From Candidatus Omnitrophota bacterium (GTDB lineage Bacteria; CAIJMQ01): a stretch of DNA of 64,000 nucleotides. The position numbers were made by a program, and so were the translations under genes. The notes beneath the pieces are model-generated. The model did no database searches and had not been told where the DNA came from. It saw only the letters and a list, made by a program, of their open reading frames with translations. Shown in pieces: positions 8,564 to 54,217 of the stretch. The stretch's first letter is position 1. Every line of letters starts with the position of its first letter. The DNA is taken from positions 62,001 to 126,000 of the forward strand of contig JAHJCU010000005.1 of NCBI GenBank assembly GCA_018812925.1, read 5' to 3'.

Positions 8564-9430
8564 ATGTTCTCAAAAGCATTAATCGCTACAGATCTTTCAC
8601 CTGTTTCTTTTGTTGTAGTAAAGCATCTTGGCGGGCTGAAAGCGCTTGGAACAAAGGATTGCTTGCTTTTGCAGTGTCTAGGATTAGGGGAACTTCCCGG
8701 CATTGCTTTCGGTACGATAAGGGATTTATTAATATCTAATCTTGCGGAACAGAAAAGAATTCTTGAGAAACAGGGATTTAGAGTAAATACTGAGGTTGTT
8801 ATGGGTAGCCCTCAGGTGGAAATTAACAAACTTGCTCACGAAAAAAAATATCCTTTGGTGGTAGTGGGCTCTCACGGTAATACACTTGCCTCAGAAATTC
8901 TTCTTGGCGGAGTGTCAAGCGCTGTGATTCATCACGCAATTAAACCGACCCTTTTGATTCGCATTAATATTGATAATAAGAAGAACTTTCATTTGGGTAA
9001 ATCCGATTTCCTGAATCATGTGCTTTTCCCGACGGATTTCTCGAAGAACGCAGACAATGCTTTTGCGTATTTGCAAAAAATGGTTGAAAGCGAAGCAAAA
9101 CGCGTAACGCTTTTACATGTTCAAAATAAAACCCGCATCACTCCTCATCTTGTCCATAGATTAGCGGAGTTTAATAAAATTGATATGGAGCGTCTTGAAA
9201 AAATGAAAGAAAAATTGACGAGTAAAAGCAAAGCATCCGTAAATATTCAAGTGGACAGCGGCTATCCGATGACGGAAATAATCCGACAATCAAAGAAAAA
9301 CAAAGCGTCTCTTATACTCATGGGCAGCCAAGGGCACGGATTTGTTAGTGAAATATTCTTGGGTAGTGTAAGTCATAACGTAGCCAGAAATTCAAAGGTG
9401 CCGGTTTTACTTATCCCGATGACCCGTTAA
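8564..9430 (+). CDS. Tandem universal stress protein (two Usp domains)
   Basis: Two UspA domains of about 140 residues each are joined in a 288-aa protein. Both keep the ATP-binding pattern G-x2-G-x9-G-S/G-S: G-S-H-G-N-T...L-G-G-V-S-S in the first and G-S-Q-G-H-G...L-G-S-V-S-H in the second. ATG 8564 is chosen because AAAGGAGGG (8548-8556) precedes it; an in-frame GTG at 8534 lies upstream of that site. The protein is cytoplasmic and probably an ATP-binding stress factor; its place inside the arsenic cluster suggests co-induction, which is inference. Confidence 0.9.
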   Translation: MFSKALIATDLSPVSFVVVKHLGGLKALGTKDCLLLQCLGLGELPGIAFGTIRDLLISNLAEQKRILEKQGFRVNTEVVMGSPQVEINKLAHEKKYPLVVVGSHGNTLASEILLGGVSSAVIHHAIKPTLLIRINIDNKKNFHLGKSDFLNHVLFPTDFSKNADNAFAYLQKMVESEAKRVTLLHVQNKTRITPHLVHRLAEFNKIDMERLEKMKEKLTSKSKASVNIQVDSGYPMTEIIRQSKKNKASLILMGSQGHGFVSEIFLGSVSHNVARNSKVPVLLIPMTR

Positions 9431-23074: not shown

Positions 23075-23216
23075 GTCATTGCGAGCGACTGAAAAGAGCG
23101 CGGCGATCTCATGAGATTGCTTCACTTCGTTCGTCTCTAGAAATCTGCCCTCTGCAATTTGAAAAATTGCGAGGACTAAGTCCCTGAAATTCCTGCGAAT
23201 TTCTCAGGGCAATGAC
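23075..23216. repeat. Composite palindromic element with GTCATTGC/GCAATGAC ends
   Basis: Terminal inverted repeats GTCATTGC (23075) and GCAATGAC (23209-23216) enclose GATCTCATGAGATT, a GAACGAAGTG-type arm and a three-hairpin cloverleaf module at 23147-23210 (arms CAATTT/AAATTG, GGACT/AGTCC, GAAATTC/GAATTTC inside GCCCT/AGGGC). It is related to the copy at 48197-48359. An ATG at 23212 is part of the repeat end, not the queA start. Confidence 0.8.
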
Positions 23217-44483: not shown

Positions 44484-44602
44484 AATTCAAGATTCCAGAT
44501 TTAAGATTCCCCTAGAAATTGCGAAGCAATTTCAGGGACTGAGTCCCGGAAATCCTCCGGATTTCTCGGGGCAAAATTCGCAAGAATCTTTAATCTTGAA
44601 TT
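44484..44602. repeat. Cloverleaf element between gatA and gatB
   Basis: Outermost arms AATTCAAGATT (44484-44494) and AATCTTGAATT (44592-44602) enclose a 63-bp cloverleaf (44509-44571). CCCC/GGGG forms its base and the three hairpins are GAAATTGC-GAA-GCAATTTC, GGGACT-G-AGTCCC and GAAATCC-TCC-GGATTTC. A TTG at 44596 is inside the element, so gatB should start downstream. Confidence 0.85.
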
Positions 44603-48196: not shown

Positions 48197-48359
48197 GTCA
48201 TTGAGAGAGAGCGAAAGCAACCGAAGTAATCTAAAAAGCGAGATTGCCTGCCCGCAAAGATTTGGCAGGCGGGCTTTGCCTTTGGCTCGCCCCTAGGAAT
48301 CTGGAAGATTTCAGGGACTTTAGTCCTGGAAATTCGTACGAATTTCTCAGGGCAATGAC
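48197..48359. repeat. Composite palindromic element with GTCATTG/CAATGAC ends, copy 2
   Basis: Ends GTCATTG (48197) and CAATGAC (48353-48359) are as in the 23075 element. Inside lie a GC-rich palindrome GCCTGCC ... GGCAGGC (48246-48270) and a cloverleaf (48289-48353) with hairpins GAATCT/AGATTT, GGACT/AGTCC and GAAATTC/GAATTTC on a GCCCC/GGGC base. The rest of the 438-bp gap 48126-48563 holds only the REP-like hairpin and the tRNA promoter. Confidence 0.85.
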
Positions 48360-53284: not shown

Positions 53285-54217
53285 ATGTTCCATAAGCAAA
53301 TTGTAATAATTGACAATAAGGAAATTGCCGCCGGTTATTTTGTTATGGAACTTATATCTTCCCAAATAGCCCAAAATTCATTCCCCGGACAATTCCTCCA
53401 TATAAAATGTTCTTCCGATTCCCAACCCTTACTACGCAGGCCTTTAAGTATACACAGAGTAATAGACAAAAAAACAATAGAAATCTTATACAAAGTGGTA
53501 GGCAAGGGCACTCATTATCTTTCCGAAAGAAAAAAGGGGGGGGAAATAGATTGTTTGGGTCCCTTGGGAAACGGATTTGAACTACCGAAAACCGAAAACC
53601 CCCTTAGAAATTCTATGGAATTTCAAGGACCAAAGTCCCGGAAATCTTTCAGATTTCTCGGGGGGAAACCGAAAACCGAAATTTTACTTGTTGCTGGCGG
53701 AATAGGGATAGCGCCTTTATTTTTTCTTATAGAAAGGATAACGAAAACCGATAACCTCCTTAGAAATTCTATGGAATTTCAAGGACCAAAGTCCCGGAAA
53801 TCTTTCAGATTTCTCGGGGGGAAACCGATAACTGTATTTATTGGAGCAAAGACAAAAGATGAAATTTTATGCGCTAACGAACTTAAAAGTTTGGGAGTAG
53901 AATTACACATCGCCACTGAAGACGGTAGTATGGGATACAAAGGATTAGTAAGCGACCTCTTGAAAAATAATCTGTCATCTGTCATCTGTCATCTGTCATC
54001 TGTTGTTTACGCCTGCGGACCGAAAGCAATGTTGAAAGAAATCGCTCTTATATCTAAAAAACACCAAATTCCCTGTCAGGTATCTTTCGAACAATTTATG
54101 GGATGTGGGATAGGTATATGCAATGCTTGTGTTATTAAAACCAAACATGGATATAGGCGGGTTTGTAAAGACGGTCCCGTCTTTAAGTCGGAAGAAATTG
54201 ATTGGAATAAAATATAA
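53285..54217 (+). CDS. pyrK: PyrK electron-transfer subunit of dihydroorotate dehydrogenase, with element insertions
   Basis: PyrK passes electrons from PyrD to NAD using FAD and a 2Fe-2S cluster. FAD motif R-P-L-S-I-H, the NAD site V-A-G-G-I-G-I-A-P-L and the cluster ligands in C-G-I-G-I-C-N-A-C ... C-K-D-G-P-V-F are intact. The product is 310 aa, about 60 more than usual. The excess is two copies of a block R-N-S-M-E-F-Q-G-P-K-S-R-K-S-F-R-F-L, encoded by cloverleaf elements, plus S-V-I-C-H-L-S from a 7-bp tandem. Removing them restores an ordinary PyrK. A G8 tract at 53536-53543 is a slippage-prone site. Confidence 0.93.
   Translation: MFHKQIVIIDNKEIAAGYFVMELISSQIAQNSFPGQFLHIKCSSDSQPLLRRPLSIHRVIDKKTIEILYKVVGKGTHYLSERKKGGEIDCLGPLGNGFELPKTENPLRNSMEFQGPKSRKSFRFLGGKPKTEILLVAGGIGIAPLFFLIERITKTDNLLRNSMEFQGPKSRKSFRFLGGKPITVFIGAKTKDEILCANELKSLGVELHIATEDGSMGYKGLVSDLLKNNLSSVICHLSSVVYACGPKAMLKEIALISKKHQIPCQVSFEQFMGCGIGICNACVIKTKHGYRRVCKDGPVFKSEEIDWNKI
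53589..53676. repeat. 66-bp cloverleaf element in pyrK, copy A, with direct repeats
   Basis: Element 53600-53665 is flanked by AAACCGAAAAC (53589-53599 and 53666-53676). The base CCCC/GGGG carries three hairpins: GAAATTC-TAT-GGAATTTC, GGAC-CAAA-GTCC and GAAATCT-TTC-AGATTTC. Because the target is a CCGAAAA tandem, the flanks can also be aligned with an 84-bp, in-frame period. Confidence 0.92.
53745..53832. repeat. 66-bp cloverleaf element in pyrK, copy B, with direct repeats
   Basis: Element 53756-53821 differs from copy A at one base (CTCC for CCCC). It is flanked by AAACCGATAAC at 53745-53755 and 53822-53832, a different word from that of copy A, as expected for target-site duplications of two insertion events. 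One extra A before the left copy keeps the reading frame. Confidence 0.92.
53972..54003 (+). repeat. CTGTCAT tandem repeat in pyrK
   Basis: Four complete 7-bp units CTGTCAT plus CTGT. Three extra units equal 21 bp, adding seven residues (S-V-I-C-H-L-S) in frame before V-V-Y-A-C-G-P. Confidence 0.85.

Follow-up and report, generated by a model that had tools for sequence, protein, structure and literature searches.

Paired twin-hairpin repeats in frame in pyrK: a small palindromic element, probably mobile, dispersed within one family of Candidatus Omnitrophota

How can a gene for a conserved enzyme accommodate two nearly identical palindromic inserts and still be read in one frame, and by what route might such inserts have arrived? 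The question is raised by the gene pyrK, encoding the electron-transfer subunit of dihydroorotate dehydrogenase, at positions 53285-54217 of the plus strand in a 64-kb stretch of DNA from a Candidatus Omnitrophota bacterium (hereafter the window). The assignment as PyrK is supported by the Pfam domains DHODB Fe-S (2.8e-16) and NAD_binding_1 (2.9e-8), and the open frame of 310 amino acids runs through two 66-mers on the same strand, at 53600-53665 (copy 1, with a conserved core of 63 bp at about 53601-53663) and at 53756-53821 (copy 2). As a preliminary description of this DNA had stated, the two differ at a single base, leave the frame open, and are flanked by direct repeats of 11 bp, AAACCGAAAAC at 53589-53599 and 53666-53676 for copy 1, and AAACCGATAAC at 53745-53755 and 53822-53832 for copy 2.

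Comparison with related genomes shows that both sites can be empty. PyrK of two congeners (genomes G001 and G002) and of a member of a sister genus in the same family (G003) lacks both inserts. The sequence at site 1 reads PKTDNQKHKTEIIL in G003 and PEDQRPKTKDQRLI in G001, in each case 21 residues shorter than in the source genome (G000), and at site 2, where the empty site of G002 holds GCGAAAACCGATAGG, the protein of that congener is also shorter by 21 residues. The net gain, exactly 63 bp or 21 codons at site 1 relative to G003 and G001 and at site 2 relative to G002, accounts for the intact frame of pyrK; it is smaller than the 26-28 residues per copy first estimated. The segment of protein that separates the copies, VAGGIGIAPLFFL, occurs once and is orthologous, which argues for two separate insertions, as originally proposed, and against a segmental duplication.

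The direct repeats invite a familiar explanation, namely that a transposase inserted an element resembling a MITE or a Rickettsia palindromic element (RPE) and in doing so duplicated 11 bp of the target site. Such an event would have added 77 bp (66 + 11) and shifted the frame, as against the 63 bp observed. The repeats belong to longer tracts on the plus strand, with (accgaaa)n heptamers at 53584-53599, a segment that contains the 11-bp repeat, and at 53666-53682 around copy 1, and with heptamer-type flanks at 53743-53755 and 53822-53832 around copy 2. Since the empty site 1 of G003 already holds a heptamer tract, ccgaaaaccgataaccaaaaacataaaacagaaat, the 11-bp repeat is pre-existing tandem sequence. 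The empty pyrK sites of the relatives are diverged, and exact junction bases come only from an anti-sigma-like gene and from nested copies, both discussed below.

At the protein level, the pyrK inserts are predicted to encode peptides of the PLRNSMEFQGPK type. In an AlphaFold model of PyrK (shallow alignment, mean pLDDT 66.7), the inserts, comprising residues 104-127 and 162-178, are predicted as loops with pLDDT below 50; the N-terminal two thirds are otherwise folded, and the C-terminal Fe-S part is also of low confidence. A third variable site of the gene, at 53970-54003 on the plus strand, is free of the element and consists of tandem heptamers, (ATCTGTC)x4.9, read in frame as SSVICHLSSVV. 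Similar heptamers are found in G002 and partly in G001.

The 66-mer is one member of a large family. A BLAST search of the whole genome, as proposed in the preliminary description, gave 29 matches to the 66-mer in G000 (best E 7e-29, far above chance). Covariance-model searches yielded at least 112 matches in G000, 118 in G001, 57 in G002 and 18 in G003; most copies scored on both strands, and after correction the copy numbers are at least about 56, 59, 29 and 9, respectively. Among 60 related genomes, the element was detected only in the congeners G001 and G002 and in the confamilial G003, with zero covariance-model matches in three other genomes of the same phylum. An exact 22-mer of the element had no match in viral contigs, and tRNAs were the only Rfam matches in the 64-kb window. 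Copies are mostly intergenic, and three further copies in the window, at 23147-23210 (minus strand), 44508-44572 (plus strand, within attcaag-type heptamers) and 48289-48353 (minus strand), lie outside any open frame. From these comparisons the element is evidently dispersed within one bacterial family. Its occurrence in four separately binned genomes also speaks against an assembly artefact, and the 63-bp length and maintained frame fit translation, whereas an intron-like insert spliced from the mRNA would need no frame conservation; an artefact or a spliced insert is accordingly the least credible of the explanations considered here. G001, with its empty pyrK sites, carries two copies that are 100% identical at non-orthologous places, so that recent movement of the element is likely. 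It is thus probable that the two 66-mers entered pyrK recently, as copies of a non-autonomous mobile element about 63 bp long.

An alignment of 31 copies was used to score alternative folds. The cloverleaf of the preliminary description is fair for a single copy, but conservation across copies points to a different structure, two hairpins facing each other in inverted orientation with one bulged base each, of the pattern CCYY-A-GAAAT..ATTTC-RRGG / AC..GT / CCYR-GAAAT..ATTTC-T-YGGG. This twin-hairpin fold pairs 98.9% of alignment cells, with compensatory changes at 12 pairs, and by this covariation it is evidently under selection. The cloverleaf pairs 92.8% of cells; its hairpins 1 and 3 covary, whereas its base stem and central hairpin display zero compensatory pairs in the 31 copies, and it was rejected as the conserved fold. 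Coding potential shows no such constraint, with 2.31 open frames per copy compared to 2.79 in shuffled sequences; without enrichment of open frames, coding by the element is incidental.

A conserved fold could also be expected of immobile, inherited structures such as terminators or attenuators, maintained by selection and copied, flanks included, through duplication or conversion. The conservation of the fold on both strands, the mostly intergenic location of copies, and some positions apparently common to congeners are in keeping with this explanation. It is nevertheless very improbable, given that identical copies occupy unrelated sites in two species, that some sites are found exactly empty, and that copies reside inside coding genes and inside one another.

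Two genes besides pyrK were found to be occupied, so that the catalogue of about 47 copies includes insertions in 3 genes; their names are putative and derive from reading of the sequences. In hypF, a copy in opposite orientation (L110, G000:C10:140614-140678) is inserted in frame. The hypF orthologues of genomes G002 to G005 lack the insert, and those of G004 and G005 are shorter by exactly 63 bp in the segment compared. The anti-sigma-like gene (G000:C3, at about 8880-8950) carries an in-frame nested pair (L011, L152) of 132 bp, for which G001 provides an exact empty site, TGTAAAAACAAATGC|GCAGTTCC, with no duplication. The element core measures 61-66 bp, with 63 bp the commonest length (52 of 95 copies), making in-frame survival of genic copies likely. 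Judging from these comparisons, insertions are evidently tolerated where the PyrK, HypF and anti-sigma-like proteins have variable loops. Elements are also located just upstream of the start regions of pilin-like (GFTLIELS) and PhoU-like genes (L030 and L033 in G001, L122 in G000), and these copies may affect expression.

Clues on the mode of entry were sought in 97 copies with 30-bp flanks, 95 of which served for core-length and junction statistics. The flanks match themselves at a lag of 7 bases with a frequency of 0.41, compared to 0.30 in shuffled flanks. When the core is excised exactly, the heptamer phase continues across the junction, with matches of 0.50, 0.44 and 0.39 at lags of 7, 14 and 21, and mostly 0.2-0.34 at other lags. 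Among possible duplication lengths of 3 to 12 bp, only 7 bp stands clearly above re-paired flanks (0.50 versus 0.355); this value equals the heptamer similarity inside the flanks (0.48), a 7-bp duplication within heptamer tracts being indistinguishable from continuity of the array. No excess was apparent for an 11-bp duplication over the 95 junctions (0.262 versus 0.249 for re-paired flanks), and together with the pre-existing tract and the net gain of 63 bp this removes the basis for the target-site duplications initially suggested. Hairpins form a second type of target. After excision, 19 of the 97 junctions are loop positions of a hairpin whose perfect stem measures 7 bp or more, where 1.6 were expected, and at least 10 of the 97 copies sit in the loop of another copy. 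Removing such a nested copy exactly leaves a sequence that is present intact at another locus (for example L116 to L095, L046 to L125, L043 to L036, L093 to L095 and L136 to L012), with zero duplications in these examples. No base is fixed at the point of insertion in the junctions examined. Complementarity of the flanks tested position by position gave mostly no signal because loops differ in size, and the stem-with-loop test is the right form. A sizeable share of junctions belongs clearly neither to hairpins nor to heptamers, and orthologous intergenic sites of G000 and G001 are too diverged for alignment.

These junctions indicate that the element enters without target-site duplication, with an evident preference for hairpin loops of 3-5 nt, those of its own kind included, or for 7-bp arrays. 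A classical MITE with target-site duplication was rejected on the exact anti-sigma site, the nested copies and the junction statistics alike, and an RPE-like element inserted in that manner is about as improbable as immobile inherited structures. Other repeats are associated with the element as well. Another family of dispersed palindromes, CCCCCTTGATTTC...GAAATCAAGGGGG with its variants, frequently bears the element in its loop (L017, L008, L015, L013, L049, L045, L044 and L038), and in the dispersed repeat TCGCTCGCAATGAC it lies between GCTC and GCAATGAC, with GC on both sides (L011, L007, L042 and L032).

What might move such an element was addressed by domain searches. In agreement with the earlier statement that no transposase is visible, G000 lacks Y1_Tnp, IS110 and reverse transcriptase (RT) domains, and its only two tyrosine recombinases are of XerC/XerD size. 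IS110 and RT domains are also absent from G001, G002 and G004, and Y1_Tnp from G003. Y1_Tnp genes do occur in the congeners, four in G001 (C32, C59, C34 and C39), in open frames of 224-326 amino acids, and two in G002 (C1 and C5); no element was found within 1.5 kb of any of them. As mobilisers, the Y1, IS110, RT and tyrosine recombinase candidates are hence absent, unlinked or only XerC/D-like.

Each half of the element resembles a REP hairpin, and the whole resembles a REPIN, an inverted REP doublet whose mobility is thought to depend on the RAYT protein (PMC3116915). The main rival to the reading preferred here follows from this likeness. The inverted doublet would be excised and inserted as single-stranded DNA by RAYT, a Y1 HUH transposase acting in trans, that has been lost from G000 or left unassembled. 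Two inverted bulged hairpins, dispersed and nested copies, lack of duplication and the open Y1_Tnp frames of G001 are all consistent with this possibility. However, Y1_Tnp is missing both from G000, whose assembly is 92% complete, and from G003, in spite of their copy numbers, the Y1 genes of the congeners stand apart from the element, the alignment of 31 copies contains no GTAG or CGTC tag, and the insertion point lacks a fixed base. Mobilisation by RAYT is therefore possible but rather doubtful. To a similar degree, we hold it possible, if somewhat unlikely, that the element multiplies without any dedicated transposase, ordinary replication and repair enzymes joining folded strands of DNA or RNA into hairpin tips and heptamer tracts, with the 63-bp length sparing genes.

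The explanation that we favour, and consider probable, is a selfish element akin to both REPINs and the SDR elements of cyanobacteria, inserted by a route that is probably single-stranded. The unit, a non-autonomous element about 63 bp long, consists of two facing, REP-like bulged hairpins and would move as a folded single strand, either DNA or RNA copied back. From the choice of targets and the absence of duplication, we infer that this strand would be joined, as DNA is replicated, to single-stranded stretches at the tips of hairpins or in slippery heptamer tracts, some enzyme presumably catalysing the joining in trans. With 63 bp as its commonest length, an insertion in a gene often adds exactly 21 codons and keeps the frame; the element would be selfish DNA and the encoded peptides tolerated by-products.

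SDR elements of Nostoc and its relatives, reportedly 21-27 nt long, are said to show compensatory changes, to be embedded in 7-bp tandem repeats, to be nested in themselves and to be confined to one lineage. To our knowledge, SDRs have no known mobiliser. SDR5 is described as inserting precisely within the palindrome HIP1 (PMC4390886). By these descriptions, the SDR family of Nostoc appears closest in behaviour to the present element, which shares with it small size, a compensated fold, embedding in heptamers, nesting, precise insertion in palindromes and restriction to a single lineage, and differs in its core of 61-66 bp, its two hairpins, its unrelated lineage and its in-frame copies in conserved genes. 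With REPINs and REPs it shares a dispersed, non-autonomous unit of two inverted bulged hairpins (PMC3116915, PMC3733652), but GTAG/CGTC tags and RAYTs, which are REP features (PMC3733652), are respectively missing and unlinked, and the targets are hairpin loops and heptamers. RPEs measure 105-146 bp and are frequently genic (PMC2229807, PMC10969869). The likeness to RPEs drawn in the preliminary description is valid as regards the outcome, in that short palindromes in the DNA are translated as in-frame parts of conserved proteins (pyrK twice, hypF and the anti-sigma gene); it does not extend to size, coding bias or genic frequency. By the description of RPEs, the element thus appears RPE-like in consequence. 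Double-hairpin and repetitive hairpin elements of organelles also proliferate by means of an unknown mobiliser and include an in-frame insert in the nad5 gene of a sponge (PMC2800124); they are mitochondrial, a sequence relation is not expected, and the likeness is one of description. As the element departs from SDRs, REPINs and RPEs in a defining property of each, we file it as a new variant among small mobile palindromic repeats.

To the study of how the smallest bacterial repeats move, four genomes with about 150 related copies contribute exact junctions. The rules that they suggest can be tested, with hairpin tips and 7-bp arrays as targets that are entered without duplication, and covarying twin hairpins as the structure. 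With PyrK and HypF, the element also provides an example beyond Rickettsia of conserved enzymes extended by peptides from palindromic DNA, and its length of 21 codons suggests a simple reason why such peptide-adding insertions occur.
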